Positions 38,401 to 54,763 of a stretch of DNA of 64,000 nt are shown in pieces. The notes below the pieces were generated by a model, which worked only from the letters and a program-made list of their open reading frames with translations, did no database searches and was not told the DNA's origin. The DNA is from an uncultured Prevotellaceae bacterium (GTDB taxonomy: Bacteria; Bacteroidota; Bacteroidia; Bacteroidales; Muribaculaceae), in NCBI GenBank assembly GCA_900318255.1, contig ONJX01000011.1, positions 28,493-92,492 of the forward strand, in the 5' to 3' direction. Within the stretch, counting starts at the first letter, position 1, and every line of letters starts with the position of its first letter. The translations under genes and the position numbers were made by a program.

Positions 38401-39510
38401 ATGAAAAAATTACTTTTATTTTCAATTTTGACTCTACTTACAGTTCTCGTGGCTAGCGCTGCGATAACTTACAGCCGAGAACTTGAGGAGCGCGCCATCC
38501 TTGGCGACAACGTGGCGATGTGGCAGCTGTCGCAGTGCTACCGTTTCAGCCTGGGGTGTGACCGAGACCTTGACAAGGCCGACTATTGGCTCGACCGTGC
38601 TGCCGAGGAGGGCAATGTAGATGCACTAAACCAGAAGGTGTTGCTCGACGACAAGGGCAAGCGCCTAACCGAAGCCAAGCGCCGTGAGCTGGCCGCTGTG
38701 GAGCAGCGAGAACGTGAGCGGTTGTTGAAGTCAAAAGAAGAGCAGCGCCTTGCCGAGGAACAGCGCAGGCAAGAAGAACTTAAAAAGCAAGAGCAAATAA
38801 AGAAACAGACATTTACTGTAAATGGTGTATCGTTCGTTATGGTAGAAGTTAAGGGCGGCACGTTCACGATGGGAGCCACGAGCGAGCAGGGCGGCGATGC
38901 GTATGATGACGAGAAGCCAGCCCACAGTGTTACCCTGTCGAGTTATCACATAGGTGAGACCGAGGTGACGCAGGAGCTGTGGAAGGCGGTGATGGGCAGC
39001 AATCCGAGTAAGTTCTATGGCGCAAATCGCCCTGTGGAGAGAGTAAGCTGGGATGATAGCCAGGAGTTTATCCGCAAGCTCAACGCCAAGACCGGCAAGA
39101 ACTTCCGCCTGCCCACTGAGGCTGAATGGGAGTATGCCGCACGTGGGGGCAGCCGCAGCCAGCACTACAAGTACAGCGGCAGCAACACGATTGGCAATGT
39201 GGCATGGTACTTTGACAATAGGTACTATGACAATAATATGGATAATACTACTCATGATGTAGCCACCAAGCGCGCCAACGAGCTTGGAATTTATGATATG
39301 AGCGGCAACGTGTGGGAGTGGTGCAGCGACTGGTATGGCGATTACAGCAGCTCGTCACAGACCAACCCCCAGGGTCCTATTTCGGGCTCTATCCGCGTGT
39401 TCCGTGGTGGCGGCTGGAACGACTACGCCAGGCTCTGCCGCGTGTCTTACCGCCCCGGGCGCTCGCCCGACTTCCGCTACTACCTCCTCGGCTTGCGGCT
39501 CGCCCTATAG
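38401..39510 (+). CDS. Exported SEL1/FGE-sulfatase protein with DGR-like variable C-terminus (paralogue A)
   Basis: A 369-residue protein. Signal peptide (about 1-20), one SEL1-like repeat (LSQCYRFSLG...DYWLDRAAEEGN, about 40-80), a charged helix rich in Arg/Glu (about 95-135), then an FGE-sulfatase domain (C-type-lectin fold; VKGGTFTMGAT, VTQELWKAVMG, RLPTEAEWEYAARGG, DMSGNVWEW). The catalytic Cys pair of true FGE is not evident, so it is likely a binding scaffold. The last 40 codons (39391-39510) form a variable region: RVFRGGGW then varied codons, ending LGLRLAL. Codons vary against the paralogues as NNC. A 106-bp element with a hairpin follows the stop. Confidence 0.9.
   Translation: MKKLLLFSILTLLTVLVASAAITYSRELEERAILGDNVAMWQLSQCYRFSLGCDRDLDKADYWLDRAAEEGNVDALNQKVLLDDKGKRLTEAKRRELAAVEQRERERLLKSKEEQRLAEEQRRQEELKKQEQIKKQTFTVNGVSFVMVEVKGGTFTMGATSEQGGDAYDDEKPAHSVTLSSYHIGETEVTQELWKAVMGSNPSKFYGANRPVERVSWDDSQEFIRKLNAKTGKNFRLPTEAEWEYAARGGSRSQHYKYSGSNTIGNVAWYFDNRYYDNNMDNTTHDVATKRANELGIYDMSGNVWEWCSDWYGDYSSSSQTNPQGPISGSIRVFRGGGWNDYARLCRVSYRPGRSPDFRYYLLGLRLAL
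39391..39510 (+). other. DGR-like variable region, copy A
   Basis: 120 nt ending at the stop codon; same length as in paralogues D, E, F and G. Variable codons (ATC, TTC, AAC, GAC, TAC, CTC, TAC, CCC, TTC, TAC, TAC) nearly all end in C, between fixed GCC, TGC, CGC, GTG, TCG and GAC codons. Confidence 0.75.
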
Positions 39511-39616
39511 TTCTCCCCTTGTTAAAGCGAGCCAGTGGAATTTTGCCCGAAAAAAGCGAGCTGCGCCAGCGCGAGCAAAACGAGGGCAAAATCGCACTGA
39601 GCGAGCGCCGCAGCGA
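39511..39616 (+). repeat. Downstream hairpin element, copy 1
   Basis: 106 bp almost identical to 54764-54868. It contains ATTTTGCCC and GGGCAAAAT (39540-39548 and 39584-39592) as a 9-bp stem, with an inner GCTGCGCCAGC hairpin. It starts at the base after the stop of a variable-region gene in both cases, the place where DGR targets often carry a hairpin. Confidence 0.8.
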
Positions 39617-39630
39617 CATCACCTATCATC

Positions 39631-39657
39631 ACCGCCGAGCGGAGCGAGGCGGTTTTT
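39631..39657 (+). terminator. Terminator after paralogue A
   Basis: ACCGCC and GGCGGT arms with an 11-base loop, followed by TTTT. Confidence 0.65.
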
Positions 39658-39699
39658 CCAGAAAAAATTAATCAAAAAAAATAACAAAAAATTATTAGT

Positions 39700-40473
39700 A
39701 TGAAACGATTATCAATTTTCTTAGTTCTATCAGTCTCCCTATTGCTGCTTAGCGGCAACGCAATGGCGCAGAAGAGTTATGGATTGTGTGTGGGCCTGTC
39801 GAAGTGTGGCACACCAGGAGCCGACGACATCGCAGCTCCTCAAAACGATGCTGTTGACCTGAAGAAGGTTCTCGTCAAGCAAGGATTCAAAGCGAGTGCA
39901 GTGACCAATCAGTATGCCACTCGCTCCAACATTCTCAACCGCGTGCGCAACATTGTTGATGCCACCAGCTCTCCTAACGACAAGATTGTGCTGTTCTTTG
40001 CCACCCATGGCAGCGAGAATGGCTACCTGCTCACCTATGGAGGTGAGTTCATCAAGTACAGTGAGCTCATCGACATCCTCTCGCACAGCAAGACCAAGCA
40101 CATCTACTGCTTTGTGATGGCATGCTACTCAGGATCGCTTGCCAATGCCCTCACCAGCGACCCCAACTGGGGCGACAATGCAGTGAAGAGCGGTATCACC
40201 TTCATGGTGTCGAGCCGCCCTGGCGAGACTTCAAAGAGCATAAGTCTTCCACACTGGAAGAACTCCTTCTTTGGTCATGCGCTGATCAACGGAATGCGTG
40301 GCCAGGCCGATGCCGACAACAACCGCAAGGTGACGCTCATGGAGCTGTTCCGCTATGTGTATAACGATGTTACTCGTCGCCTTGATGGCAGCCGCGAGGT
40401 GAATGGTGAGACACAGCATCCGCAGCTCATAGGTCCCTCTAGCGAGCATGACACAGTGATTGCACGCTGGTGA
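39700..40473 (+). CDS. Exported caspase-like (peptidase C14) protein
   Basis: A 257-residue protein with signal peptide (cut near residue 24, NAMA-Q). The caspase fold is clear: VGLSKC at the first strand, NDAVDLKKVL, and the catalytic dyad His103 in FATHGSENGY and Cys142 in VMACYSGSL, followed by MVSSRPGETS and FFGHALINGM. Metacaspase-like enzymes cut after Arg/Lys or Asp. Export makes it a periplasmic or surface protease. It sits between a variable FGE protein and the kinase/phosphatase group, so it could be the effector of this module (inferred). There is no added domain. Confidence 0.9.
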   Translation: MKRLSIFLVLSVSLLLLSGNAMAQKSYGLCVGLSKCGTPGADDIAAPQNDAVDLKKVLVKQGFKASAVTNQYATRSNILNRVRNIVDATSSPNDKIVLFFATHGSENGYLLTYGGEFIKYSELIDILSHSKTKHIYCFVMACYSGSLANALTSDPNWGDNAVKSGITFMVSSRPGETSKSISLPHWKNSFFGHALINGMRGQADADNNRKVTLMELFRYVYNDVTRRLDGSREVNGETQHPQLIGPSSEHDTVIARW

Positions 40474-40567
40474 TTTTCGTGAGGCAAAAGTGGGCATTTC
40501 GTCAAGAAACCAGGGTGATTTCATCCAAGATGGCTCAAAAAACTTGACTTAGGCACTTGCCAGGTGT

Positions 40568-40575
40568 TAACTTTG
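40568..40575 (+). promoter_or_regulatory. -7 box (TAACTTTG) for the acidic-protein operon
   Basis: Lies 57 bp before the ATG at 40633; upstream sequence shares the spacing and blocks (TTTCA, CCAAGA, AAAAAA) of the 38.3 and 47.4 kb promoters. Confidence 0.55.
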
Positions 40576-40632
40576 CCTTGTAATTATTAACCCAGTCACC
40601 AGTAATGTGTGACAAAAAAAAAGCATAAAACT

Positions 40633-41751
40633 ATGGAAACAAAGAAAAGCGACATGGCACTTAACTTAGACATTGCCAAGAGTGATAAGAAAAAGAAAAG
40701 TAACGGCAAGATTAGCGGCACCGAACTGGGCGTGGGCCTGGGAGTGGCAACGGTGGTGGGCGCTACCGTGGGGGGCGTGATAGGCCGCAACACGGCAGGC
40801 GGGAGCACCGACGATGAGCCACTGGCGCAGCTCGAACCCGACGATCAGGTGCAAGATGAGGCTACAGCTCAAGAGGAAATGACCGACGACGGCCTCACGC
40901 AGCCCGATGACAAAGCTGAGGGCACCGACAAACAGGATACTCAGCATGAAGAACCTAAGGTCGAGGAGCCCAAGACAGAGGAGCCCAAGATAGAGGAGCG
41001 CAATGGTGAGGAACCCAAACCCGAAGAAAACGACCCTAACGATGTGGCCGAGCGACTCATCGAGAAAGACGAGGTTGACCCCATCGACAATAGCGAGAAC
41101 CTCACGGCTGTGGAGTGGCGCGACATCACCGATGCCAGTGGCAACGAGGTGCATGCCATGATCTTTGCCGACGAGAATGGCATTGAGATAGCATTTGCCG
41201 AGTCGGTGCCCGGCTCAGGAATCTATGACAAGGCTATTGATGGGCTCACTGGCATGGAGGTGGAGATGCCACATGCAGCAAGCTACACCAGTGCCGACTT
41301 TGAGGGCATGCTACACAACGATGGCGGCTACATCGCCCCCGACCCCAATGGCCCTCACTTCGCGCAGAACGATGACATCGACAAGGACATCTTCACCACC
41401 GACAATGGAGAGCTCGTGGCTGAGCGTGACCGCCGCGGCGGCTCACAAGAGCACCATGCCGATGATGAACCTGTGGTTGACATCGATGGCGATGAAGTGG
41501 ACCCGACAGGCGGTGATGCCACCGACGACAACCTCGCCCAGACTCATGCCATGGAAGGCGACAGCGTGGCCGACGACATCGACGAAGGCCTGCTGGCTCA
41601 AATCCTGGGCGACGATGATGCCGATGTCAACGAGGATTTAGTTGAAATCGTTGACGATATTAATCTCGATGAGCCCGAGGTTGACGAAGAACTGCTCGAG
41701 GACGAGGAACTCGACGAGTCAATGGACGACGAGCTCGACGACTCTTTTTAA
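40633..41751 (+). CDS. Very acidic protein with glycine-rich hydrophobic segment, unknown function
   Basis: About 372 residues from the ATG at 40633; an in-frame GTG at 40609 would add eight residues (MTKKKHKT). A short basic N-terminus is followed by a Gly/Val-rich hydrophobic stretch (LGVGLGVATVVGATVGGVIG, about 33-52) that could cross or sit in a membrane. A Glu/Lys/Pro repeat (EEPK units, about 100-130), a central folded-looking block (about 145-230) and a long Asp/Glu tail ending in DELDDSF follow. No family recognised. Co-transcribed with the zinc-ribbon/FHA and PP2C genes, so probably a partner in that signalling set. Confidence 0.75.
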   Translation: METKKSDMALNLDIAKSDKKKKSNGKISGTELGVGLGVATVVGATVGGVIGRNTAGGSTDDEPLAQLEPDDQVQDEATAQEEMTDDGLTQPDDKAEGTDKQDTQHEEPKVEEPKTEEPKIEERNGEEPKPEENDPNDVAERLIEKDEVDPIDNSENLTAVEWRDITDASGNEVHAMIFADENGIEIAFAESVPGSGIYDKAIDGLTGMEVEMPHAASYTSADFEGMLHNDGGYIAPDPNGPHFAQNDDIDKDIFTTDNGELVAERDRRGGSQEHHADDEPVVDIDGDEVDPTGGDATDDNLAQTHAMEGDSVADDIDEGLLAQILGDDDADVNEDLVEIVDDINLDEPEVDEELLEDEELDESMDDELDDSF

Positions 41752-41795
41752 CTGAGCTGATCAAACCAATTGTTATTGATTAAACCATTAAAGTT

Positions 41796-42644
41796 ATGAA
41801 TAACGAAAATAGAAATACCAATCCAAGCCAGCTGCGCATCACATGCGAGACATGTAGCAAATCGTTTAGGATTAACACCCCATCAAAGCCTGGCAATTAC
41901 AACGTTAAGTGCCCTCATTGTGCCACTAGCATAAAAGTGAGCATCGCCGCTCCCAAGCTCAGCGACGCACTGCACGCTCCGCGCATCAAGGCCCCGGTGC
42001 TGGGCGAGCCAGTGAAGGTGCAGCACAAAGTGTATGCCATCAAGAAGCGTGCCATCGTGGGCCGGCCCTACAAGGCTGTGTGCCCCGACTGCGGCAACGA
42101 CATCAGTCTCACTCCCACACTGGCCAACAAGAACTTGAAGGCACAATGCAAGCAGTGCGGCACGGTGGTGGTGTATAAGGCTGTTGAGAGCAATGCCACC
42201 AGCGACGACAGCGACGCAACCGACGACGGCTCACCGGCTGGTCACAAACCTGGAGGCAGGAAAAAAACCGAGCGCCTTAACCCGCCAAGTGGTGCCTTGC
42301 GCTGGAAGCCTAAGGGCTTTACTGAAAGATTGTTGAAGCGGCGCGACATGGTGGGCAGGCTCAAGCGAGGCCCCAACATTGTGGGGCGCAAGAGCCCCGA
42401 CGAGATTAGCGACATTATGATTGAGGGCGACAAGGAGATGAGCCGTCGCTCGGTGGAGATAAATGTCAAAGAGCAAGCCGGAGTCAAGGACTACATCTAT
42501 GAGCTGCGAGTGCTACGCACCACCAACCCCGTGTTCATCAACGGACGTCCGGTGGCGCTCACCGAGGTGGTGAAACTCAACTATGGCGACACCATCATGA
42601 TGGGAAAAACCTCTATTTCATTTTTTAAACTAAAAAACACTTAA
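41796..42644 (+). CDS. Double zinc-ribbon protein with C-terminal FHA domain
   Basis: A 282-residue cytoplasmic protein. First ribbon CETC...CPHC (about 14-47) resembles the MJ0042/zinc-ribbon type; the second CPDCG...CKQCG is at about 90-126. After a Pro/Lys linker the last about 100 residues form an FHA domain: IVGRKSP, MSRRSVEI, NGRPVALTEV, LNYGDTIMMGKTS. It would read phosphothreonine marks set by the kinases at 55-59 kb. The next gene (PP2C) starts 2 bp after its stop. Confidence 0.85.
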   Translation: MNNENRNTNPSQLRITCETCSKSFRINTPSKPGNYNVKCPHCATSIKVSIAAPKLSDALHAPRIKAPVLGEPVKVQHKVYAIKKRAIVGRPYKAVCPDCGNDISLTPTLANKNLKAQCKQCGTVVVYKAVESNATSDDSDATDDGSPAGHKPGGRKKTERLNPPSGALRWKPKGFTERLLKRRDMVGRLKRGPNIVGRKSPDEISDIMIEGDKEMSRRSVEINVKEQAGVKDYIYELRVLRTTNPVFINGRPVALTEVVKLNYGDTIMMGKTSISFFKLKNT

Positions 42645-42646
42645 TA

Positions 42647-43570
42647 ATGAAGATCACCACAGCAACAAGCCACTCGTTTCACCAGATGGGTGGACGTGGC
42701 AATCAGGAAGACTCTCGATATCCCGATGTCGATATCATGCCGGCAGGCCAGCGCGTCTTTATCGTGTGTGATGGAGTGGGGGGATGCGACAATGGCGAGG
42801 TGGCGAGCCAGCTAGTGGCATCAATCATGGGCACGCAGCTCGAGAAAGCCAATCTTGACATGGAGCTCACCGACGACCAGCTGCTCGATGCGCTCGACGA
42901 GGCTTATATCGCTCTCGACAATGCCGCCACCAGCGACCACGATGAAATGGGAACTACACTCACCCTGCTGTGCTTCCATGCTGGTGGAGCCACCATGGCC
43001 CACATTGGCGACAGCCGCATCTACCACATCAGGCCCGGCGAGGGAATCTTGTATCGCAGCGACGACCACTCGCTCGTGAACCAGATGGTGCACAATGGCC
43101 AGCTCACTCCCGAGGAAGCGGTCAACCACCCGCAGAGCAATGTGATAACCCGCTGCATGAGCCCCACGGCAGCCGACCAGCGCCGCAGCATGGCCACAGT
43201 GTTTCACACGGCCAACATCGAGGCAGGCGACTATGTGATGCTCTGCAGCGATGGTGTGCTGCACTGCATGAGCGACGATGAGCTGGTGGCATTGCTCGAG
43301 GGTGATGGCAGCGATGAGGCCAAAGCCCACGAGATGGCAAGCCGCAGCGCTGGCAGCAACGACAACAACACCGCTTGGCTGGTGAGAGTCGAAGCCGTGG
43401 AGCGTGATGCCAGCGAAGAGCTCAAGAACGACAGCGACAGCAATAATCAGCCCGATGCGAGCGACACTGTGCAAAGCCACGGCTCCACCATGTGGATGAG
43501 TGAGCTCGCAAGCGAGCGCCGCGGCAAGCAGTCACTCAAGAAGAGGTGGTTCCGCTTATTTGGAAAGTAA
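42647..43570 (+). CDS. PP2C-family Ser/Thr protein phosphatase
   Basis: A 307-residue phosphatase. Metal-binding motifs are complete: GRGNQEDS (N-terminal Asp), VCDGVGGCDNGE, MAHIGDSRIYHI, LCSDGVLHCM and SNDNNTAWLV. It removes phosphate from Ser/Thr and should oppose the two kinases of the cluster. The C-terminal about 50 residues (after residue 250) are polar and basic. Tight spacing to the upstream FHA gene indicates one operon. Confidence 0.94.
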   Translation: MKITTATSHSFHQMGGRGNQEDSRYPDVDIMPAGQRVFIVCDGVGGCDNGEVASQLVASIMGTQLEKANLDMELTDDQLLDALDEAYIALDNAATSDHDEMGTTLTLLCFHAGGATMAHIGDSRIYHIRPGEGILYRSDDHSLVNQMVHNGQLTPEEAVNHPQSNVITRCMSPTAADQRRSMATVFHTANIEAGDYVMLCSDGVLHCMSDDELVALLEGDGSDEAKAHEMASRSAGSNDNNTAWLVRVEAVERDASEELKNDSDSNNQPDASDTVQSHGSTMWMSELASERRGKQSLKKRWFRLFGK

Positions 43571-43610
43571 GAAATCAAGTCAATTTAAATAATCAAAAAC
43601 ACTGTGAAAT

Positions 43611-45251
43611 ATGAAACACTCCTTTATTATAATAGTGGCACTCATGGCAAGTATCATTGCTGCAACATGGATGCCTATTGACGCTAAAAAGAAAATAAAG
43701 AAGTCACCAACCACTACCAAGGTGGCTACCACACAGGCCGATACCACAGCACAGGCTCCTGCCGACACCACCGCACAAGCACCTATCGACACTCTTGCCT
43801 GGCTCAAGGCACAGGACAAAGAAGGCAACCTGGATGCAACTTTCGCATTGGGCATGGTTTATTACCAAGGTGAGTATGGCGAGAAGCAGGATTACAAAAC
43901 TGCCGCTGGCTGCTTTGCCAAGGCTGCCGACAAGGGGCACCCTCAGGCCACCACAATGCTTGCAACATGCTACCTGATGGGCAACGGCGTGGAGAAAGAC
44001 ATGGAAAAGGCCCGCAAGCTCTACATGATTGCCATTAAGAAAGGCGACAACTCCTTGATTGATATTCTCACACCACTTGCCGAGCAACAGGGCAGCCTGT
44101 TTGCCAGTCAGCTTCTTGCCGAGTGCTACTCTAAAGGCATAGGCGTTAAGGTTGACAAAGCCAAGTCGCTGCATTTCACTGAGATTGCCGCCAATGCCGG
44201 CGACATTGAGAGTTGCTTGACCACTGGGCTCACCTATTATAACAAGAAAGAGCGCGACAAGGCATTCCCATTCTTTGAGAAAGCCGCGCTGGCTGGTGAC
44301 ACGCAAGCGACTTACTTCTATGGCCTCATGCTCTACGACGGCGATGGCGTGACACAAGACCGCGCCAAGGGCATCAAGTATCTGCAGCTGGCTGCCGACT
44401 CGAGCCATGTGGCCGCCAATGCCAAGTTGGGCTATATCTACTTCAACGGCGATGGCATGACACAGGACAAGGTCAAGGGCTTCAACATGATAAAGCGTGC
44501 TGCTGAGCTGGGCAACAACAAGGCGCAGTGGACACTGGCCAACTGCTACCGCACTGGCGATGGTGTGAACCAGGACTACAGCCTTGCCGCTCACTGGCTC
44601 GCACAGGTGGCAACTGGCTCGCGCAAGGGCGACTATGCCACCATGATTGAGGATTTAAAGGCCAAGAATGATCCTTTCTACAGCTATCTCAAGGGACTGC
44701 ACGCCTATTATGTGGCAGGCGACTATGAAGCCGCTCAGCAGCTCTTCAAGGCTGTGGAGAAGGCCAAGAACCCTGAAGGGCTCACAATGCAAGCGGTGTG
44801 CCTCACAAGCAAGAAAAACCCCAAGCACGACCTCAAGAAGGCTGCCAAGCTCTTCGAGAAAGCCTCAAGCACCAGCCCCACAGCATGCTACTACCTTGCC
44901 TATATGCTTGAGACTGGCAACGGCGTGAAGAAGGATGAGGCACGTGCACTGCAGCTGCTCACTAAGGCTGCCGACGGTGGCAATGGCGATGCACAATGCC
45001 GACTTGCCGACAAGTACATCAAGGGCACTGGCACAGTGGGCATGAACATGGAAAAGGCTGCTCACTACTATGTGATGGCCGAGGCGCAGCATGCCCTCAC
45101 CCCCGAGGCTGCCAAGCAGCTTGCCAACCTCTATGAGAACGACTTCATGTCGCTGCCTTCGGTCCCCGACGTGAAGAAGCATGCCGCCGAGCTGCGCAAG
45201 ACCAAAGATAACAACAACCTGCTCAACATGCTGGCGACAACTAAATTCTAA
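43611..45251 (+). CDS. Exported SEL1-repeat protein
   Basis: A 546-residue protein with signal peptide (about 1-25) and a Thr/Ala/Gln-rich linker (about 38-62). At least ten SEL1 (TPR-like) repeats follow, with the A-xx-LG-xY-xG-xGV-xxD-xxKA pattern (for example LGMVYYQGEYGEKQDYKTA and LMLYDGDGVTQDRAK). SEL1 solenoids serve as protein-binding scaffolds. The gene is in line with the PP2C operon and ends before a hairpin at 45270. It shares its repeat type with the N-termini of the FGE paralogues. Confidence 0.9.
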   Translation: MKHSFIIIVALMASIIAATWMPIDAKKKIKKSPTTTKVATTQADTTAQAPADTTAQAPIDTLAWLKAQDKEGNLDATFALGMVYYQGEYGEKQDYKTAAGCFAKAADKGHPQATTMLATCYLMGNGVEKDMEKARKLYMIAIKKGDNSLIDILTPLAEQQGSLFASQLLAECYSKGIGVKVDKAKSLHFTEIAANAGDIESCLTTGLTYYNKKERDKAFPFFEKAALAGDTQATYFYGLMLYDGDGVTQDRAKGIKYLQLAADSSHVAANAKLGYIYFNGDGMTQDKVKGFNMIKRAAELGNNKAQWTLANCYRTGDGVNQDYSLAAHWLAQVATGSRKGDYATMIEDLKAKNDPFYSYLKGLHAYYVAGDYEAAQQLFKAVEKAKNPEGLTMQAVCLTSKKNPKHDLKKAAKLFEKASSTSPTACYYLAYMLETGNGVKKDEARALQLLTKAADGGNGDAQCRLADKYIKGTGTVGMNMEKAAHYYVMAEAQHALTPEAAKQLANLYENDFMSLPSVPDVKKHAAELRKTKDNNNLLNMLATTKF

Positions 45252-45269
45252 TAACTCACAATAAGAGCG

Positions 45270-45302
45270 CAGGGGCTGTGCCCACATTTATCACAGCCCC
45301 TG
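45270..45302 (+). terminator. Hairpin between SEL1 genes
   Basis: CAGGGGCTGTG and CACAGCCCCTG form an 11-bp perfect stem with an 11-base loop; only a short T run (ATTTTTA) follows 10 bp later, so termination may be partial. Confidence 0.55.
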
Positions 45303-45325
45303 GCTTAATGCATTTTTACACAACA

Positions 45326-46132
45326 ATGAAAAAACTCATAACTTCAATTTTACTCATTATTGCCGCCACCGCTCAGGTGTGGGGCGTGGTTTACAGCACC
45401 GAGCTGCAACGTGCCGCCGAGGCTGGCGACATGGTGTCGCAATACAAACTGGCACATTGCTATCACCATGGCAATGGCATTGACGTGGACATGATTACTG
45501 CTGCCTATTGGTACAAGAAAGCGGCCGACCAGGGCGATATGTACTCTCAATCGGCATTGGGCGATTTGTACTACCTGGGCGAAGGTGTGGGCAAAGACGA
45601 CAAAGCCGCACTGCAGTGGTGGAACAAGGCTGCCAAAAGTGGCTACTGGGGAGGAGCTTACAGCATAGGCTACTACTACCTGAAGGCTAAGGACTACAAG
45701 CACGCCATCGAGTGGTTCAACTACTCCAACGAGATCTCGCGTAAAAACTCTGAATTCCCTATTTTGGCAAATTTTGAGCTTGGCCTTTGTTACTACTCAA
45801 ACTGGCAGGGCCAAGACTTTGCCAAGGCTTTCAACCTCTTTAGTCAGGAAGTTGAAGAGAATAACAATTTTGCCAGGGCAAAACTTGGCGAGATGTACAT
45901 GCGCGGACAATTGGTGGCACAAGACTACGACAAAGCCTTCAAGTTGCTCAAGGAAGCCGCCGAGAACGAAATTCAGCCATCGGGCGATGCAATGAACCTG
46001 CTGAGCTCGTGTTACCGTTTTGGCCTGGGTACTGCCAAGGACATCAACAAAGCCGACTATTGGCTCAACAAATCCAAGCAGACCGACAGCGACATGGTAG
46101 TGCTCATAATGCAGGCTCTTAGTGAGAAATAG
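45326..46132 (+). CDS. Exported SEL1-repeat protein
   Basis: About 268 residues from the ATG at 45326 (MKKLITSILLIIAATAQVWG signal peptide); the in-frame ATG at 45278 would overlap the hairpin and spoil the signal peptide. Six SEL1 repeats (YKLAHCYHHGNGIDVDM, SALGDLYYLGEGVGKDDK and others). The last repeat (LLSSCYRFGLGTAKDINKADYWLNKS) is very close to the single SEL1 unit at the start of paralogues A and B, pointing to exchange between these genes. Confidence 0.88.
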   Translation: MKKLITSILLIIAATAQVWGVVYSTELQRAAEAGDMVSQYKLAHCYHHGNGIDVDMITAAYWYKKAADQGDMYSQSALGDLYYLGEGVGKDDKAALQWWNKAAKSGYWGGAYSIGYYYLKAKDYKHAIEWFNYSNEISRKNSEFPILANFELGLCYYSNWQGQDFAKAFNLFSQEVEENNNFARAKLGEMYMRGQLVAQDYDKAFKLLKEAAENEIQPSGDAMNLLSSCYRFGLGTAKDINKADYWLNKSKQTDSDMVVLIMQALSEK

Positions 46133-46169: not shown

Positions 46170-47273
46170 ATGAAAAAATTACTCTTTTTTTCAATTTTGA
46201 CTCTACTTACAGTCCTCGTGGCTAGTGCTGCGATAACTTACAGCCGAGAGCTCGAGGAGCGCGCCATCTTGGGCGACAACGTGGCGATGTGGCAGCTGTC
46301 GCAGTGCTACCGGTTCAGTTTTGGAGTAGCCCAAGACCTTGACAAGGCCGACTACTGGCTCGACCGAGCAGCCGAGGAGGGCAATGTTGATGCGCTAAAC
46401 CAAAAGTTGTTGCTCGACGACAAGGGCAAGCGCCTGAGCGATTCCAAGCGCCGTGAGCTGGCTGCAGTTGAGCAGCACGAGCGAGAGCGGTTGTTGAGGT
46501 CAAAAGAGGAACAGCGTCTTGCAGAGGAACGGCGCAGGCAAGTCAAGAAGCAGACATTCACGGCTAATGGCGTTTCGTTCACCATGGTAGAAGTGCAAGG
46601 TGGCACGTTCACTATGGGTGGCACCAGCGAGCAGGGCAGCGATGCCGACAAGAATAGCGGGTATCCCGAAAAACCAGCACATAACGTGACCCTGTCGAGT
46701 TATCACATAGGTGAGACCGAGGTTACCCAGGAGTTGTGGGAAGCCGTGACGGGGGAGAATCCATGTGTGTTTAAAGGCGGGAACCTTCCTGTTGAGAATG
46801 TGAGTTGGAAGGATTGCCAAAAGTTTATTAAAAAACTCAATAAACTTACTGGCAAAAAGTTCCGCCTTCCCACCGAGGCTGAGTGGGAATTTGCGGCACG
46901 TGGCGGCAATCTTAGCAAGGGATACAAATATAGCGGCAGCGATAATTTAGACGACGTGGCCTGGTTCCGTGAGAACAGCGGCGGCATCACCCACAATGTC
47001 GGCACAAAGCGAGCCAACGAGCTTGGCTTGTATGACATGAGCGGCAACGTGAGTGAATGGTGCAGCGACTGGATTGACAGTTACACTTACAGCAGTTTCT
47101 CGCAGACCAACCCCACTGGTCCCAGTTCGGGCCATTTCCGCGTGATCCGTGGTGGCAGCTGGGACTCCGGCGGCTGGTCGTGTCGCGTGTCGGCCCGGGG
47201 TCAAGGCAGTATCAACAGCAGGTTCAAGCCCGACAATCAGAACGAGTGGCTCGGCTTGCGCCTTGCCCTATAG
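46170..47273 (+). CDS. Exported SEL1/FGE-sulfatase protein (paralogue B)
   Basis: A 367-residue protein. The first about 120 residues (signal peptide, SEL1 unit, charged helix) are nearly identical to paralogue A at 38401, while the FGE domain (about 130-367) has diverged. Domain motifs: VQGGTFTMGGT, VTQELWEAVTG, RLPTEAEWEFAARGG, DMSGNVSEW. The C-terminal region RVIRGGSWDSGG...CRVSARG...LGLRLAL has the same frame as the variable region but is several codons longer, so it is not the strict 120-nt type. Confidence 0.88.
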   Translation: MKKLLFFSILTLLTVLVASAAITYSRELEERAILGDNVAMWQLSQCYRFSFGVAQDLDKADYWLDRAAEEGNVDALNQKLLLDDKGKRLSDSKRRELAAVEQHERERLLRSKEEQRLAEERRRQVKKQTFTANGVSFTMVEVQGGTFTMGGTSEQGSDADKNSGYPEKPAHNVTLSSYHIGETEVTQELWEAVTGENPCVFKGGNLPVENVSWKDCQKFIKKLNKLTGKKFRLPTEAEWEFAARGGNLSKGYKYSGSDNLDDVAWFRENSGGITHNVGTKRANELGLYDMSGNVSEWCSDWIDSYTYSSFSQTNPTGPSSGHFRVIRGGSWDSGGWSCRVSARGQGSINSRFKPDNQNEWLGLRLAL

Positions 47274-47398
47274 TTTCCCCTCGTCAATTCAAGCGAGCAT
47301 TATTATAATCAAGCTCAAAACCTTATTGTTTCGTCAATAAAAGTTGCAGTTTCAGCTAAGGATTGTGAAAAAAGTTTCAAATGCCTTGTTGGGAGTGC

Positions 47399-47406: not shown

Positions 47407-47463
47407 CAAAGCGGTCACAACTAGGTGAGCTGTAAAGATTAAAAATTTAAACACTTATAATAT

Positions 47464-48579
47464 ATGAAAAAAATAATAATTCTAATCTCCATCTCGCTTG
47501 TTGCATTGGCTACAGCTCTTGCGGCAACTACATTTAGCCGAGAGCTCGAGGAAAAGGCTATCCTGGGCGATGCCGCTGCCATGCACGAGCTCTCGGTGTG
47601 CTACCGCATGGGCACTGGCGTTGCCAAAGATCTTGATAAAGCCAACTACTGGCTTGAGCGAGCTGCACAAGAGGGCAACCCCAATGCACTCGCCACGCTT
47701 GAGCTCCTTGACAACAAAACCAGCCTCACCGAAGCCAAGCGTCGTGAGCTTGCCGCTATTGAGGCTCGAGAGCGAGAACGACTATTGCATGAGAAAGAGA
47801 AGCAGCGAATAGCTGAGGAACGGCGTCTTAAGGAGGAGGAAGAGGCTCTTGTTAAAGATGAATTATTTTTGGTAAAAGGTGTTTCATTTAAAATGATTGG
47901 TGTGCATGGTGGAGAATTCTCCATGGGAGCTAATGTGGCTACAGTAGGAACAGATGACGACGAGTTTCCAGTGCATCAGGTGATGCTCTCTTCTTTTGGA
48001 ATCGCCCAGACAGAAGTAACCCAGGAACTGTGGAATGCCGTAATGGGGAACAATCCGAGTAAATTTAAAGGCAACAAACTCCCTGTTGAGTGTGTTAGTT
48101 GGAACGATTGTATAGAGTTTATTGAAAAACTTAATGCACTGACAGGACGTGTTTTTCGTCTTCCCACCGAGGCTGAGTGGGAATATGCCGCCCGCGGCGG
48201 TCACAGTGGAGGCTACAAGTACAGCGGCAGCGACAACATCTACGACGTGGCATGGTATGAGACCAACAGCAGTGACAAAACACACAAAGTGGCCTCTAAG
48301 CAATCAAACGAGCTTGGTCTTTATGACATGAGTGGTAATGTGTGGGAGTGGTGTCAAGATTTATATGATTACCATTATTATAGTTTTAGTGAAACACGAA
48401 ATCCAATAGGACCCAAAAAGCCTAATAATGAAAATTCTTACGTACTTCGAGGAGGGTGTTTTCAAAGTTTTAAAGGACATTGCTGTGTGAGTACTAGATC
48501 TCAGAGTAAGAGTGATTCTCGCACCCCATCTATTGGATTGCGTCTTGCCTATTCTTTAGGAAATAGGAACATACATTAG
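47464..48579 (+). CDS. Exported SEL1/FGE-sulfatase protein, diverged (paralogue C)
   Basis: A 371-residue protein with the same plan (signal peptide, one SEL1 unit, charged helix, FGE domain with RLPTEAEWEYAARGG and DMSGNVWEW). The last third is AT-rich with codon use unlike the neighbours. The C-terminal segment (LRGGCFQSFKGHCC...IGLRLAYSLGNRNIH) has lost the NNC codon pattern and runs ten residues past the usual LRLAL end. It seems no longer to be a variable-region target, or arrived from elsewhere. Confidence 0.87.
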   Translation: MKKIIILISISLVALATALAATTFSRELEEKAILGDAAAMHELSVCYRMGTGVAKDLDKANYWLERAAQEGNPNALATLELLDNKTSLTEAKRRELAAIEARERERLLHEKEKQRIAEERRLKEEEEALVKDELFLVKGVSFKMIGVHGGEFSMGANVATVGTDDDEFPVHQVMLSSFGIAQTEVTQELWNAVMGNNPSKFKGNKLPVECVSWNDCIEFIEKLNALTGRVFRLPTEAEWEYAARGGHSGGYKYSGSDNIYDVAWYETNSSDKTHKVASKQSNELGLYDMSGNVWEWCQDLYDYHYYSFSETRNPIGPKKPNNENSYVLRGGCFQSFKGHCCVSTRSQSKSDSRTPSIGLRLAYSLGNRNIH

Positions 48580-48610
48580 TTAAATTGATGTTACAAATAC
48601 ATATAATAAG

Positions 48611-49744
48611 ATGAAACTGCTTAAAATTATATTTTTAGTAATAATATCGCTCGTCATTACAAGTAGGGCGATTGCTCAAGTACCTTATAGCATCGAGCTT
48701 AAACAGCGTGCCTATCTTGGAGAGCCAGATGCTATGCATCAATTATCTGTTGCTTATCGGGTAGGAAAGGGTGTTACTAAAGATGTTGATAGGGCTAACT
48801 ATTGGTTGGAACGGGCATCGGAGGAAGGCAATCCTAACGCTATTGCCACTATGGAGTTACTCGGTAACACAACCAGTTTGAGTGATGCTAAGCGTCGTGA
48901 GCTGGCTGCAGTTGAGAAACATGAGCGTGAGCGGCTGTTGAAGGCAAAAGAAGAGCAGCGTCTTGCCGAGGAACGGCGCAAGCAGGAGGAGCAGCGCCTT
49001 GCCGAGGAACGTCGCAGGCAGGAAGAACTTAAAAAGCAAGTCAAGAAGCAGACATTCACGGCTAATGGCGTTTCGTTCACCATGGTGGAAGTTCAGGGCG
49101 GCACGTTCACTATGGGTGGCACCAGCGAGCAGGGCAGCGATGCCAAGAGTAGCGAGAAACCAGCACATAAAGTGACCCTGTCGAGCTATTACATAGGTGA
49201 GACCGAGGTTACGCAGGAGTTGTGGCAAGCAGTGATGGGGAAGAATCCAAGCAAGTTCAAAGGCGACAAGCATCCTGTTGAGAAGGTGAGCTGGGACGAC
49301 TGCCAAAAATTCATCACAAAACTCAATGAAATGACAGGTAAGAATTTTCGTCTTCCAACCGAGGCCGAATGGGAATTTGCTGCCCGTGGTGGCAGTAAAA
49401 GCCGTGGCTACAAGTATAGTGGCAGCAACAATCTCAATGATGTGGCGTGGTTAGACAATAACAGTTATGACAAGATGGCAAACATCCCTAGCTATGGCAG
49501 CACCCACGCAGTAGGCACAAAGCAGTCCAACGAGCTTGGCCTCTATGACATGAGCGGTAACGTGTGGGAGTGGTGCGGCGACAACTGGTACAACTATTCT
49601 GGCATTCCCTCAAATTATAGTTCTAATTACGTGAATCGCGGCGGCGGTTGGGACGACAACGCCAAGCAATGTCGCGTGTCGAACCGCAATCGTCGGTCGC
49701 TCGACCTACGCGGCGACAACCTCGGCTTGCGTCTCGCCCTATAG
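48611..49744 (+). CDS. Exported SEL1/FGE-sulfatase protein with DGR-like variable C-terminus (paralogue D)
   Basis: A 377-residue protein. Signal peptide (about 1-22), SEL1 unit (SVAYRVGKGVTKDVDRANYW), a charged helix with a duplicated EEQRLAEERRRQ block, and an FGE domain (about 145-377). The N-terminal third is AT-rich like paralogue C; the variable region (49625-49744) is GC-rich like A and E-G. The boundary suggests a chimeric gene. It is followed by the first copy of a 44-bp linker repeat. Confidence 0.9.
   Translation: MKLLKIIFLVIISLVITSRAIAQVPYSIELKQRAYLGEPDAMHQLSVAYRVGKGVTKDVDRANYWLERASEEGNPNAIATMELLGNTTSLSDAKRRELAAVEKHERERLLKAKEEQRLAEERRKQEEQRLAEERRRQEELKKQVKKQTFTANGVSFTMVEVQGGTFTMGGTSEQGSDAKSSEKPAHKVTLSSYYIGETEVTQELWQAVMGKNPSKFKGDKHPVEKVSWDDCQKFITKLNEMTGKNFRLPTEAEWEFAARGGSKSRGYKYSGSNNLNDVAWLDNNSYDKMANIPSYGSTHAVGTKQSNELGLYDMSGNVWEWCGDNWYNYSGIPSNYSSNYVNRGGGWDDNAKQCRVSNRNRRSLDLRGDNLGLRLAL
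49625..49744 (+). other. DGR-like variable region, copy D
   Basis: 120 nt ending at the stop; varied codons AAT, AAT, GAC, GAC, AAC, CAA, AAC, AAT, CGT, CGG, CTA, GGC, GAC, AAC; fixed blocks GCC, TGT CGC GTG TCG, and GGC TTG near the end. Confidence 0.72.
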
Positions 49745-49788
49745 GTTAATACACAGCGAAAAAATGAAATAAAAACATACTGAAGCTT
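49745..49788 (+). repeat. 44-bp linker repeat, copy 1
   Basis: Starts GTTAATACACAGCG and ends CATACTGAAGCTT right before an ATG. Near-identical copies at 52684-52727 and 53712-53755 each join the end of a variable-region tail to the start of a gene with the MKH-type signal peptide. Confidence 0.9.
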
Positions 49789-50691
49789 ATGAAACACTTT
49801 AAGTTATTCTTATCCTTGATAGTGGTGCTGGTGGCGGGTCTCGCCGCCAGTGAGATTGCCATGGCTCAGGGCAAGAAGAAATCCACGTCGAAGATTCCTG
49901 TCAAGACCGAGAAGCCGGCAGCGAAGCGCACCCCTCAGCCCAAACAAGAGAAGAAGCGCGAGGCCAAGCCTCAGCCGAAGCAAGGGGACAAGCAACCCAA
50001 GCGTTCGGCCGATGAGATTATCAACGCTTATGTCAACAGCATGGTCTATGTTGAGGGCGGCACTTTCACGATGGGCGCCACGGGCGCCACGGGCGGCGAT
50101 GCGTATGATTTCGAGAAGCCCGCCCACAGTGTTACCCTGTCGAGTTATCACATAGGTCAGACCGAGGTGACCCAGGAGTTGTGGGAGGCGGTGATGGGCA
50201 GCAACCCGAGTGAGTTCAAAGGCTCTAATCGCCCTGTGGAATGCGTGAGCTGGGATGACTGCCAGGAGTTTCTCTCTCGTCTGAACCGCATCACCGGCAA
50301 GCGCTTCCGCCTTCCCACCGAGGCCGAGTGGGAGTATGCCGCCCGCGGCGGCAGCCGCAGCCGCGGCTACAAGTATAGCGGGAGCGACAACATCTACGAT
50401 GTGGCGTTCGATAAGAACAGCAATAGTGAGACAAACAATGTCGGCACCAAGCTTCCTAATGAGCTTGGTCTCTACGACATGAGCGGCAACGTTTGTGAAT
50501 GGTGCAGTGACTGGTATGGCGCTTACAGCAGCATTGCTCAGAGCAACCCCACTGGCCCCAGCTCGGGCTCCTTCCGCGTGCACCGTGGTGGCAGTTGGTA
50601 CGACGACGCCGGGCGCTGTCGTGTGTCGAACCGGAACTTCAACTCGCCCGACAACCGCAACAACCTCCTCGGCTTGCGACTCGCCCTATAG
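49789..50691 (+). CDS. Exported FGE-sulfatase protein with DGR-like variable C-terminus (paralogue E)
   Basis: A 300-residue protein without the SEL1 unit. Signal peptide (about 1-27, ending AMAQ), a Lys/Pro-rich basic linker (about 28-80, KPAAKRTPQPKQEKK type), then the FGE domain (about 85-300; VEGGTFTMGAT, VTQELWEAVMG, RLPTEAEWEYAARGG). The variable region is at 50572-50691. Of the five copies this one has the most AAC codons (AAC at seven variable sites), so it may be closest to the inferred template. The N-terminus is shared with F and G. Confidence 0.9.
   Translation: MKHFKLFLSLIVVLVAGLAASEIAMAQGKKKSTSKIPVKTEKPAAKRTPQPKQEKKREAKPQPKQGDKQPKRSADEIINAYVNSMVYVEGGTFTMGATGATGGDAYDFEKPAHSVTLSSYHIGQTEVTQELWEAVMGSNPSEFKGSNRPVECVSWDDCQEFLSRLNRITGKRFRLPTEAEWEYAARGGSRSRGYKYSGSDNIYDVAFDKNSNSETNNVGTKLPNELGLYDMSGNVCEWCSDWYGAYSSIAQSNPTGPSSGSFRVHRGGSWYDDAGRCRVSNRNFNSPDNRNNLLGLRLAL
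50572..50691 (+). other. DGR-like variable region, copy E
   Basis: 120 nt ending at the stop; varied codons TTC, CAC, TAC, GAC, GAC, CGC, AAC, AAC, TTC, AAC, AAC, AAC, AAC, CTC, every one ending in C. Confidence 0.78.
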
Positions 50692-50759
50692 TTTTTAAAA
50701 TCTTCAACATAATAATCATAAAGTTGAGGGGATATAACTAGTTAACACATACTGAAAAT

Positions 50760-52643
50760 ATGAAAAAAATATTAACGACATTACTTGTTTCAGTTTTTAC
50801 TATCACTGCTGCTCAAGGACAAAACAAATATTCTAAAGAACTCGAAAAGAAAGCTCTTTCAGGTGATGTTATAGCGCAAAACAATCTTGGAGTGTGCTAT
50901 TCCGAAGGCAATGGCGTAGCAAAAGACAATAAAGAAGCCCTGAAATGGTATCTTAAGGCTGCTAATCAGGGCTATAAGACTGCCCAATATAATTTGGCCC
51001 TCGACTACTATCATGGCAATGATGCTGTGGCTCAAGACTATGTTGAGGCTGCAAAATGGTTTACTAAAGCCGCAGAACAAAATGACAAGAAATCACAATA
51101 TATGCTTGGCATCATTTATCATTTTGGCTATGGTGTTGAAAAAGACTACAGTCAAGCCTATAAGTGGTTTGAAAAAGCTGCTAATCAAGGAGACGCCACT
51201 TCGCAATTCTACATGGGATGGTATTATGGTAGTGGTAATGGTGTAGCTCAAGATTACAAGCAATCGGTCAACTGGTACCAACTAGCTAGTGAGAAAGGAA
51301 ATGCCAGCGCCTATTATAACATGGGTGTGTACTACTTGAACGGACAAGGTGTTGACAAAGATTATGAACAAGCATGTCATTGCTTTTATGAGGCAGCCCA
51401 AAGGGGATATGACAAAGCTCTGGAATGGTTAAAAAGTAGGGCGCAGCAAGGTAAGATTGAAGCACAATATTATCTTGCCTGCACCTTTTATTCGGCTAAG
51501 GATTACACCCATGCTATCGAGTGGTTCAAAAAAGCAGCTGATCAAGGCGACAACAACTCTATGGACAAGTTGGGCATAATCTATGAGGAAGGAATAGGAG
51601 TTGACAAAGACTTTAATGCAGCCGAGCAGTATTATCTCAAAGCTACCAATAATGGCTCGCTCAGTGCAATGAATAATCTCGCAATCCTCTATACCGATAA
51701 ACTTAAGCAGCACAATAAGGCCCTAGAATGGTTTAATAAAGCTGTTAAAGAAGGTTATGCCGAGGCTTATAGGAATATTGCCATCATGTATTATTTTGGT
51801 GATGCTGTGGGTGTTGACTATTCCAAAGTGATAGATTATGCTTCGGAATATCTGATTAGAGCCAACATTAAGGATGAGAGTAACGATAGTTACCTGAGCG
51901 CCTTTTGGATGCTTGAGGATGTGTGTGCTAAACACAACAGCACAGGGAAGTATAACACACAGCTTGCATCTAAATCTGATGTTTTCAACCTTTTCAATAA
52001 AGCAGTGCTAAGCGAAAGCCATGAGGCTATCAACGATTTTGGTCTTGGTTTTTGTTATGCCTATGGCATTGGCACTTCTAAAGATATAGATAAGGCAAAG
52101 AGCTTATTTTTTGGTGGCGGTGACTACAACACTCTCTATGATAAAAGCTGTTTCTGTGCGTCAGTTTTTATTGACATGATAAACAATAAGGCACTCGGAA
52201 ACGTCACTGAAAAGCAAAAATATAATATCGCCCAGATTTGGCAATCATGGGACGGCGAGATGGCTGTGATTGTTGCTAAAGCTATGATTGAGGGTAAAAT
52301 CGTAAAAAAAGATGTACAGGGAGCTATTAACACATTGAAACTTGTGATTAAGAATAATGACAATGATTGTCCCGTGGCTGAATATGAGCTGGCAAAGTAT
52401 TATATCAACAACGATATGAAGCAACATTACTCCGATGCTTTTAAACTGTTGAAACATGCATCGGCCGACGAAGAAGCACGACTGGGTGATGCCATGAACT
52501 TGCTCAATACATGCTACCGATTCGGTCTTGGAACCACAAAGGATTTGAAACTTGCAAACTATTGGCTTAACAAAGCCGAGCAAACTGGCAGCAATGATGC
52601 AAACTTAATAAAGCGACAATTAGCAGGCACGAAAAATAATTAG
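50760..52643 (+). CDS. Exported SEL1-repeat protein
   Basis: A 627-residue protein with signal peptide (cut near residue 20). It has more than a dozen SEL1 repeats, for example LGVCYSEGNGVAKDNKEAL, MGVYYLNGQGVDKDYEQA and NTCYRFGLGTTKDLKLANYW. The DNA is clearly more AT-rich than the FGE genes on either side. Its stop is followed at once by an orphan variable-region tail (52659-52683), so it seems to have been placed into or recombined with the FGE array. Confidence 0.9.
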   Translation: MKKILTTLLVSVFTITAAQGQNKYSKELEKKALSGDVIAQNNLGVCYSEGNGVAKDNKEALKWYLKAANQGYKTAQYNLALDYYHGNDAVAQDYVEAAKWFTKAAEQNDKKSQYMLGIIYHFGYGVEKDYSQAYKWFEKAANQGDATSQFYMGWYYGSGNGVAQDYKQSVNWYQLASEKGNASAYYNMGVYYLNGQGVDKDYEQACHCFYEAAQRGYDKALEWLKSRAQQGKIEAQYYLACTFYSAKDYTHAIEWFKKAADQGDNNSMDKLGIIYEEGIGVDKDFNAAEQYYLKATNNGSLSAMNNLAILYTDKLKQHNKALEWFNKAVKEGYAEAYRNIAIMYYFGDAVGVDYSKVIDYASEYLIRANIKDESNDSYLSAFWMLEDVCAKHNSTGKYNTQLASKSDVFNLFNKAVLSESHEAINDFGLGFCYAYGIGTSKDIDKAKSLFFGGGDYNTLYDKSCFCASVFIDMINNKALGNVTEKQKYNIAQIWQSWDGEMAVIVAKAMIEGKIVKKDVQGAINTLKLVIKNNDNDCPVAEYELAKYYINNDMKQHYSDAFKLLKHASADEEARLGDAMNLLNTCYRFGLGTTKDLKLANYWLNKAEQTGSNDANLIKRQLAGTKNN

Positions 52644-52658
52644 AAACCGTTGTAACCG

Positions 52659-52683
52659 CCTCGGCTTGCGCCTCGCCCTATAG
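52659..52683 (+). pseudogene. Orphan 3' tail of a variable-region FGE gene
   Basis: Encodes LGLRLAL followed by TAG, identical in sense to the end of paralogues A, B, D-G, but attached to nothing: the SEL1 gene ends 16 bp before. It is followed by linker copy 2. Best explained as what is left of an FGE gene lost by recombination. Confidence 0.8.
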
Positions 52684-52727
52684 GTTAATACACAGCGAAA
52701 AAAAGAAATAAAAACATACTGAAGCTT
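52684..52727 (+). repeat. 44-bp linker repeat, copy 2
   Basis: One base different from copy 1 (AAAAAAAGAAATA in place of AAAAAATGAAATA). It joins the orphan tail to paralogue F. Confidence 0.9.
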
Positions 52728-53711
52728 ATGAAACACGTTAAGTTATTATTAGCATTGATAGTGGTGCTGCTGGCGGGGCTTGCCGCCAGTGAGATGGCCA
52801 TGGCTCAAGGCAAGAAGAAATCCACGTCTAAGATTCCTGTCAAGACCGAGAAGCCGGCAGCGAAGCGCACCCCTCAGCCAAAGCAAGAAAAGAAGCCGGC
52901 GGCAAAGCCACGGCAGGAGAAGAAACGTGAGGCAAAGCCTCAACCGAAGGCAGAGCCCAAACCTCAACCGAAGGCAGAGCCCAAGAAACCCAAGCGTTCG
53001 GCCGATGAGATTATCAACGCTTATGTCAACAGCATGGTCTATGTTGAGGGTGGCACGTTCACTATGGGAGCCACCAGCGAGCAGGGCGGTGATGCGTATG
53101 ATGCCGAGAAACCAGCCCACAGTGTTACCCTGTCGAGTTATCACATAGGTCAGACCGAGGTGACCCAGGAGTTGTGGGAGGCGGTGATGGGCAGCAACCC
53201 GAGCAGTTTCAAGGGCTCTAATCGCCCTGTGGAATGCGTGAGCTAGGAGGACTGCCAGGAGTTTCTCTCTCGTCTGAACCGCATCACCGGGGAGCGCTTC
53301 CGCCTTCCCACCGAGGCCGAGTGGGAGTATGCCGCCCGCGGCGGCAGCCGCAGCCGCGGCTACAAGTACAGCGGCAGCGACAACATCTACGATGTGGCGT
53401 GGTTCACCCAGAACAGCCGCGACAAGGGTTCAAGCAGTCCTGACTATGGCACCCACGCAGTTGGCACCAAGCTACCCAACGAGCTTGGTCTCTATGACAT
53501 GAGCGGCAACGTGTGGGAATGGTGCAGCGACTGGTATGGCGCTTACAGCAGCAGCGCGCAGAGCAACCCCACTGGCCCCAGCTCGGGCTCTTACCGCGTG
53601 AATCGTGGCGGCGGCTGGTGCAACAGCGCCAGGTACTGTCGCGTGTCGGACCGCGACATCAGCTCGGCCGGCTACAGCAGCCTCAACCTCGGCTTGCGTC
53701 TTGCCCTATAG
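52728..53711 (+). pseudogene. FGE-sulfatase protein with variable C-terminus, interrupted by TAG (paralogue F)
   Basis: The reading frame would give 327 residues but holds one in-frame TAG at 53244-53246. The paralogues have Trp (TGG) there in the motif VSWDDCQEF, so a single G-to-A change made the stop. Before it: signal peptide, Lys/Pro-rich linker (longer than in E), first half of the FGE domain. After it the frame is intact to the end, including the variable region 53592-53711. The product would be a 172-residue truncated protein. Whether it is dead, or kept as a donor of variable sequence, is unknown. Confidence 0.85.
53592..53711 (+). other. DGR-like variable region, copy F
   Basis: 120 nt ending at the stop; varied codons TAC, AAT, TGC, AAC, AGC, TAC, GAC, GAC, ATC, AGC, TAC, AGC, CTC, AAC. 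The TAG lesion lies upstream of it. Confidence 0.75.
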
Positions 53712-53755
53712 GTTAATACACAGCGAAAAAATGAAATAAAAACATACTGAAGCTT
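53712..53755 (+). repeat. 44-bp linker repeat, copy 3
   Basis: Same sequence as copy 1, between paralogues F and G. Confidence 0.9.
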
Positions 53756-54763
53756 ATGAAACACGTTAAGTTATTATTTGCATTGATAGTGGTGCTGCTG
53801 GCGGGTCTTGCCGCCGGTGAGATGGCCATGGCTCAAGGCAAGAAGAAATCCACGTCGAAGATTCCTGTCAAGACCGAGAAACCGGCAGCAAAGCGCACCA
53901 CTCAGCCCAAGCAAGAAAAGAAGCCGGCAGCAAAGCCTCGGCAGGAGAAGAAGCGCGAGGCTGACGAGGCCCCCAGAAAAGTTGTGGAGCGCAAGCCACA
54001 ATCCAAGCCTGAGCCAAAACCAGAACCCAAGGCAGAACCAGCTCTAAGCAACCGCACGTTCACGGCAAATGGCGTGTCGTTCACGATGGTGGCAGTGCAG
54101 GGTGGCACGTTCACTATGGGTGCCACCAGCGAGCAGGGCAGCGATGCCGATAGCGACGAGAGACCAAAACATAACGTGACACTGTCGAGTTATCACATAG
54201 GCGAGACCGAGGTCACACAGGCTTTGTGGGAGGCGGTTATGGGCAGTAACCCTAGCCGCTTTAAGGGGTCGAATCGTCCTGTGGAGAGGGTGTCATGGAA
54301 AGATTGCCAGGAGTTCATAAAGAAACTTAACAAACTTACTGGCAAGCAGTTTCGCTTACCTACTGAGGCTGAGTGGGAGTATGCCGCCCGCGGCGGTCAC
54401 AGTGGAGGCTACAAGTACAGCGGCAGCGACATCATCTACGACGTAGCATGGTTCGACATGAACAGCTCTGACAAGGGCTCAAGCAGCCCCGACTATGGCA
54501 CACATCCTGTTGCGAGCAAGCGAGCCAACGAGCTGGGCATCTACGACATGAGTGGCAACGTGTGGGAATGGTGCAGTGACTGGTGGTATGGCGCTTACAG
54601 CAGCAGTTCTCAGTCTAACCCCACTGGTCCCAGTTCGGGCTCTCTCCGCGTGTTCCGTGGTGGCGGCTGGAGCTACCGCGCCGGGAACTGTCGAGTGTCG
54701 CGCCGGAACAGCAGCTCGCCCGACTACCGGAGCAGCGACCTAGGCTTGCGCCTTGCCCTATAG
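53756..54763 (+). CDS. Exported FGE-sulfatase protein with DGR-like variable C-terminus (paralogue G)
   Basis: A 335-residue protein. The N-terminus (signal peptide and Lys/Pro linker, about 1-100) matches E and F; the next part (NRTFTANGVSFTMV) matches the start of the FGE domain in B and D, so this gene joins two lineages. FGE motifs are complete (VQGGTFTMGAT, RLPTEAEWEYAARGG, DMSGNVWEW). The variable region is 54644-54763. The second copy of the downstream hairpin element follows the stop. Confidence 0.9.
   Translation: MKHVKLLFALIVVLLAGLAAGEMAMAQGKKKSTSKIPVKTEKPAAKRTTQPKQEKKPAAKPRQEKKREADEAPRKVVERKPQSKPEPKPEPKAEPALSNRTFTANGVSFTMVAVQGGTFTMGATSEQGSDADSDERPKHNVTLSSYHIGETEVTQALWEAVMGSNPSRFKGSNRPVERVSWKDCQEFIKKLNKLTGKQFRLPTEAEWEYAARGGHSGGYKYSGSDIIYDVAWFDMNSSDKGSSSPDYGTHPVASKRANELGIYDMSGNVWEWCSDWWYGAYSSSSQSNPTGPSSGSLRVFRGGGWSYRAGNCRVSRRNSSSPDYRSSDLGLRLAL
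54644..54763 (+). other. DGR-like variable region, copy G
   Basis: 120 nt ending at the stop; varied codons CTC, TTC, AGC, TAC, CGC, AAC, CGC, AAC, AGC, AGC, TAC, AGC, AGC, GAC, all ending in C. Confidence 0.78.

Follow-up and report, generated by a model that had tools for sequence, protein, structure and literature searches.

A cluster of genes encoding proteins of the formylglycine-generating enzyme (FGE) fold is found in a 64,000-nt stretch, hereafter the window, of contig ONJX01000011.1 (C9 in our numbering) from an uncultured Prevotellaceae bacterium assigned to the Muribaculaceae in GTDB (assembly GCA_900318255.1, our G000; positions 28,493 to 92,492, forward strand). Five of these genes, A, D, E, F, and G, end in segments of exactly 120 nt running to a TAG stop codon (Table 1), and when the original prediction, made from the sequence alone, was checked on window positions, the five segments were found precisely where it had placed them, along with the codons it had listed after the fixed Trp. 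The segments were proposed to be variable repeats (VRs) of a diversity-generating retroelement (DGR), forming an array of five targets in one locus. Five copies are indeed present in the window, but a sixth sits on another contig of the same genome, C47, and the gene carrying copy F is interrupted by a TAG. In A, F, G, and the C47 copy, the conserved unit extends 7 nt 5' of the 120-nt segment (GGGCTCT).

The proposal that these segments are VRs finds its support in congeneric genomes. VR E was used as the query (E <= 0.001) over 150 genomes, comprising the own genome, 90 congeners, and 59 further genomes from the order, with at most five candidates scored per genome and with some matches being short (35-60 nt). 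VR-like matches were present in at least 37 of these, namely the own genome, 34 of the congeners, and 2 of the other genomes from the order. Two loci, in G010 (C23) and in G005 (C30), possess AAC at the varied codons, with one AAT in G005, and in both the same order is observed: an FGE target gene, a small accessory gene (with an HRDC domain detected in G010), a DGR reverse transcriptase (RT) with the motifs IGNLTSQ and YMDD, characteristic of DGRs, and the template, extending from the RT stop codon onward, with a second target following the template in G010. The three VRs compared from these cassettes differ from their own templates exclusively at adenines (16 of 33 for G010 VR1, 17 of 33 for G010 VR2, and 18 of 33 for G005 VR1, versus 0 of 84 non-A sites in all three). 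The two templates are themselves not identical, with 17 of 120 sites differing between them. The template pattern is present in four of the 150 genomes, G005, G010, G077, and G106. When compared to the G010 template, all six own copies reveal a bias toward adenines (Fisher p from 2e-12 to 0.03, D being the weakest), with 14 to 26 of 33 A sites and 6 to 19 of 84 non-A sites mismatched (Table 1; for the C47 copy, 26 and 9, respectively). An AAC template next to a DGR RT, which had been expected in the genome itself, thus exists in G010 and G005 and was not found in the own assembly. Judging from these sequence comparisons, the DGR origin of the segments is as good as certain. A further observation on the two cassettes is that, 3' of the template (L085 and L086), G010 and G005 have in common a stretch around AACAGGAT...TCTCCCG, which may belong to the template RNA.

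The codon pattern was assessed at the 16 codons that read AAC, AGC, or GAC in the G010 template. The third base is C in 16 of these in G, in 15 each in A, E, F, and the C47 copy, and in 8 in D, and thus the third base is mostly kept as C in A, E, F, and G and to a lesser degree in D, an outlier that also possesses the highest number of non-A changes. Pooled over the six copies, third-base C amounts to 84 of 96, versus 53.1 (sd 4.7) expected from the encoded residues and local codon usage, and none of the 200,000 simulations reached this count; codon usage is no explanation of the pattern. On average, the six copies show 2.68 different bases at a template adenine, 1.15 at a non-A site in codon position 1 or 2, and 1.61 at a non-A site in the third position. 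The skeleton codons are mostly kept, as predicted, but they are not fully frozen, with silent changes at CGN, GGN, TGY, and one TCG codon. As the varied residues are located in a C-type-lectin/FGE domain, where selection may vary binding residues, ordinary selection could be envisioned to have diversified the ligand-contact residues without any DGR, with third-base C coming from codon usage, but such a scenario is at odds with the third-base count and is already contradicted by the congener templates with their RT, and we consider it very improbable.

As to the machinery, the whole-genome search that had been suggested as a check returned neither an RT nor a template in the own assembly (3,145,470 bases in 58 contigs, 98.02% complete), and to this extent the claim of a live array fails, while the DGR origin stands. 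The G010 DGR RT as a query produced no candidate in this assembly, the template pattern had no match in it, two template-flank sequences conserved between G010 and G005 were absent from it at up to 3 mismatches, and all five exact matches to the skeleton pattern were VR copies. A pattern match on C20 was rejected as a template, as it is located inside a long unrelated reading frame. The only RVT_1 match of the assembly (C14; L001, 1303-2637) was rejected as a DGR supplier, as its motif, LPQGAPSSP, is not the SQ motif of the congener enzymes; its best matches in PADLOC and NCBIfam are retron-type or other defence RTs (those in NCBIfam all below cut-offs), and it appears to be a retron- or defence-type enzyme, retron-like rather than DGR. 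Next to the C47 copy, a truncated gene for the HRDC-type accessory protein is recognized, the match covering residues 1-93 of 153 (Avd was outside the search). The truncated residues at the end of the own accessory frame recur at the end of a database protein, P0168 (two short contigs), and a full-length relative is 83% identical. Of the features by which an active DGR is recognized, the own genome presents A-directed VR mismatches and a truncated accessory gene, with no DGR RT and no template found. As neither RT nor template was found, the VRs are likely no longer being rewritten.

The original prediction, with no machinery visible in the window, invoked supply in trans. One template shared by several targets would make these targets identical at non-A sites, and this test is the one applied to Thiohalocapsa PB-PSB1 (PMC10907252). 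In G010, the two VRs differ at 0 of 82 non-A sites, while the own copies, over 15 pairs, differ at 5 to 19 of 82 per pair, and for this reason the reading of a live array is unsupported. Silent codon differences can be used as a gauge: for the G010 target pair these are found in 59 of the 159 comparable codons of the gene bodies and in none of the 17 of the VR (p 6e-4), while for the 15 own pairs they amount to 0.13-0.44 in the VR (2/15 to 7/16) and to 0.18-0.52 in the bodies (ungapped comparison). The non-A drift of the own copies is mostly in third bases, and its extent is roughly that of the drift in the gene bodies. A DGR supplying the array in trans could in principle be encoded in the 2% of the genome missing from the assembly, or else on a mobile element that was not binned, and the A-directed pattern kept in the VRs, the 5' anchor in A, F, G, and the C47 copy, and the incompleteness of the assembly are all compatible with this. 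However, the non-A differences contradict a common live template, and the 90% cluster of protein A comprises just 1 member sequence, from 16 contigs. Supply by a phage was likewise rejected, as the template skeleton had no exact counterpart in viral contigs, and the 16 RT loci that two peptide patterns picked up there do not exceed 35% identity. All considered, a live array supplied in trans appears improbable.

Of 16 FGE relatives retrieved from the protein database, 13 were compared with the window proteins (9 with A and 4 with G; P0149, P0050, and P0139 were excluded). These differ from A or G in 10 to 17 of 17 A codons and in 0 to 5 of 22 other VR codons, with 29 to 61 residues differing over the 286 to 330 aligned in the bodies, and such A-codon-biased differences suggest that the VRs have been rewritten between lineages, even though the relatives may be paralogues of A and G. 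Alternatively, several DGR-bearing lineages may have supplied the genes through transfer or duplication, the VRs having been written beforehand from different templates, in which case no DGR would ever have been needed in the present lineage. The 17 of 120 differences between the G010 and G005 templates demonstrate that different templates could account for the non-A differences, and VR-like matches are spread across the genus. What speaks against this scenario is the presence of a cassette relic, the truncated accessory gene, beside the C47 copy, as well as the near-identical downstream spacers of D, F, and a short VR relic located between E and F, as would be expected from local duplication. 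We consider such multiple arrivals unlikely.

Overall, we propose that the six copies are VRs that were once written by a DGR and that are probably no longer rewritten, most likely representing leftover targets of a lost DGR. Several FGE-fold paralogues would have received, at their 3' ends, mutated cDNA of the template from a cassette of the G010/G005 type, the RT and the template would then have been lost, and the encoded proteins would persist as a repertoire of binding variants that no longer changes, with one gene or more (F) having decayed. A number of observations weigh against this proposal. The assembly, at 98.02% completeness and in 58 contigs, has gaps in which an RT and a template could fall. 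G010, with its cassette intact, also possesses a truncated second copy of the accessory gene, and therefore the accessory relic is by itself no proof of loss or inactivity. The protein G cluster includes 3 member sequences from 17 contigs, and the contigs behind these cluster counts may stem from samples that were assembled more than once. The pooled silent divergence is lower in the VRs (69 of 240) than in the bodies (742 of 1803; own pairs, non-independent), and two of the 15 pairs, D-E and D-C47, have VR silent divergence below that of the bodies at p < 0.05, uncorrected. With the pooled divergence in the VRs below that in the bodies, templating may have outlasted the duplications; thus the last templating may be younger than these, having continued after them and then ended.

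Data for the genus were collected from 101 genomes, including the own genome, of which 48 reach 90% completeness or more with contamination no higher than 5%. Many of these assemblies are incomplete, which limits any count of RT absence. The G010-type RT is present in only 2 of the 101 (E <= 1e-30), and 32 of the 34 congeners with VR-like matches do not possess it. A locus was obtained for 27 of these 32, of which 21 aligned ungapped and 6 were dropped, and in all 21 the mismatches to the G010 template are biased toward adenines at p < 0.01, the sites being non-independent. Other RTs with the SQ motif are present in G086, G089, G063, and G025, and so the lack of the G010-type enzyme does not equal the lack of any DGR. 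One example of a partial locus is presented by G077 (L123, C51), where a VR is followed, about 350 nt on, by a template that is cut off at some 50 nt, and where the G010-type RT was not matched; this appears to be another decayed cassette. DGR loss with retention of the targets looks, from these genomes, as though it may be recurrent in the genus. G089 (C5, L111) encodes a different DGR-like RT, not resembling the FGE type, close to a repeat rich in asparagine codons.

The array is embedded in a cluster, recognized through Pfam (37577-58992), of genes for FHA, caspase-like, phosphatase, and kinase proteins (Table 1), with Sel1 proteins also encoded around it, and a kinase is also encoded upstream of the C47 copy. 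The N-termini of the target proteins possess hydrophobic stretches typical of export signals, as read by eye, and the proteins are predicted to be exported. Among solved structures, protein G has its best sequence match in Treponema denticola variable protein 1 (PDB 2y3c, E 1.1e-40), itself a DGR target, T. denticola belonging to a phylum other than that of the window organism. The formylglycine-generating enzyme possesses two active-site cysteines. In the alignment of protein G (the only one aligned) to the FGE of PDB 6muj, one cysteine stands against the two of the C-x4-C stretch, and for this reason an enzymatic role for protein G appears unlikely; the targets are inferred to act in binding and signalling. 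The predicted structure of protein G (mean pLDDT 52.8, below 50 in the VR region) was not used. In DGRs that have been studied, a hairpin is found downstream of the VR. The stems after the G010 VRs are of 18 bp (z -6.8 and -8.3), and the one after the C47 VR is of 22 bp (z -7.1). No such stem is found directly 3' of the stop codon after D and E, and F shares the downstream spacer of D. The stem-loop after VR A is possibly an eroded form of the strong G010 hairpin.

Table 1. Genes and other features of the FGE target array and its surroundings (window positions; mismatches are to the G010 template)
Feature	Position	Strand	Remarks
FHA	37577-38230		Pfam
Gene A	38401-39510	+	N-terminal hydrophobic stretch; Sel1-like repeat (below Pfam cut-off); FGE/C-type-lectin-fold domain PF03781, E 1.7e-48
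Variable repeat A	39391-39510	+	5' anchor GGGCTCT at 39384-39390; 22/33 A, 10/84 non-A mismatches
Imperfect stem-loop 3' of VR A	39531-39602	+	z -0.09, no better than shuffles
Caspase-like C14	39700-40473		Pfam
FHA with zinc-ribbon match just below cut-off	41796-42644		Pfam
PP2C	42647-43570		Pfam
FGE paralogue with longer segment, not a 120-nt copy	46170-47273	+	VR skeleton ends CRVS ... LGLRLAL
FGE paralogue without VR codon pattern	47464-48579	+	
Gene D, FGE-domain target	48611-49744	+	
Variable repeat D, most drifted copy	49625-49744	+	14/33 A, 19/84 non-A mismatches
Gene E, FGE-domain target	49789-50691	+	C9:78527-79177
Variable repeat E	50572-50691	+	14/33 A, 7/84 non-A mismatches
VR relic, last 30 nt	52654-52683	+	Downstream spacer nearly that of D and F; probably the vestige of a further target gene of the array
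Gene F, pseudogene	52728-53711	+	In-frame TAG at 53244-53246
Variable repeat F	53592-53711	+	16/33 A, 9/84 non-A mismatches
Gene G, FGE-domain target	53756-54763	+	PF03781, E 4.9e-51
Variable repeat G	54644-54763	+	18/33 A, 6/84 non-A mismatches
Imperfect stem-loop 3' of VR G, form as after A	54786-54851	+	z -0.30
Two protein kinases	55016-58992		Pfam

Leftover DGR targets are a kind already known from Treponema denticola, and the array of the window is probably an added case. According to the T. denticola report (PMC4891356), isolates of this species possess leftover DGR target genes with no RT or template repeat identified, isolate al-2, for example, possessing six target genes without the core system. 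As in that report, the VRs described here differ from the templates of relatives mostly at adenines, no RT or template was found, and an HRDC accessory gene is part of the intact systems. Unlike the T. denticola leftovers, the targets here belong to Bacteroidales and are clustered FGE paralogues located beside kinase, phosphatase, and caspase-like genes; their drift has been gauged against gene bodies, and a G010-type RT is lacking in 32 of the 34 VR-matching congeners. A search of the open-licence literature for leftover or lost DGRs found only the T. denticola case, and one for DGRs in Muribaculaceae brought up a single review. The marks of leftover targets, A-directed VRs with no RT or template found and kinship to the targets of intact systems, are all present in the own assembly at its level of completeness. 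With the DGRs of G010 and G005, the array has in common FGE targets, the template skeleton, and the VR length, and, with G010, the 5' anchor, but those genomes possess an RT and a template, and their three VRs match the template at all non-A sites. Another point of comparison is Thiohalocapsa PB-PSB1 (PMC10907252), in which several targets are described, some at incomplete loci, including two FGE-domain targets in a putative conflict system, and supply in trans was deduced from perfect non-A matches to a template within the genome, matches that are not observed here.

These data suggest that live and dead multi-target DGRs can be separated from a single assembly, by comparing non-A sites between the targets and against the gene bodies. 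Surveys that start from the RT would miss VR-like segments not accompanied by a G010-type RT, which are common in this genus. The fate of diversified proteins after the loss of their mutator also becomes testable. More tentatively, and we regard this as a doubtful extension, it is possible that throughout the genus the entry of a DGR is followed by a burst of variants in paralogous genes for exported lectin-fold proteins and then by the loss of the DGR, leaving behind a fixed, inherited recognition repertoire wired to the kinase/phosphatase/FHA/caspase-like cluster. If this were true, the retroelement would be a transient author of germline-like receptor families.

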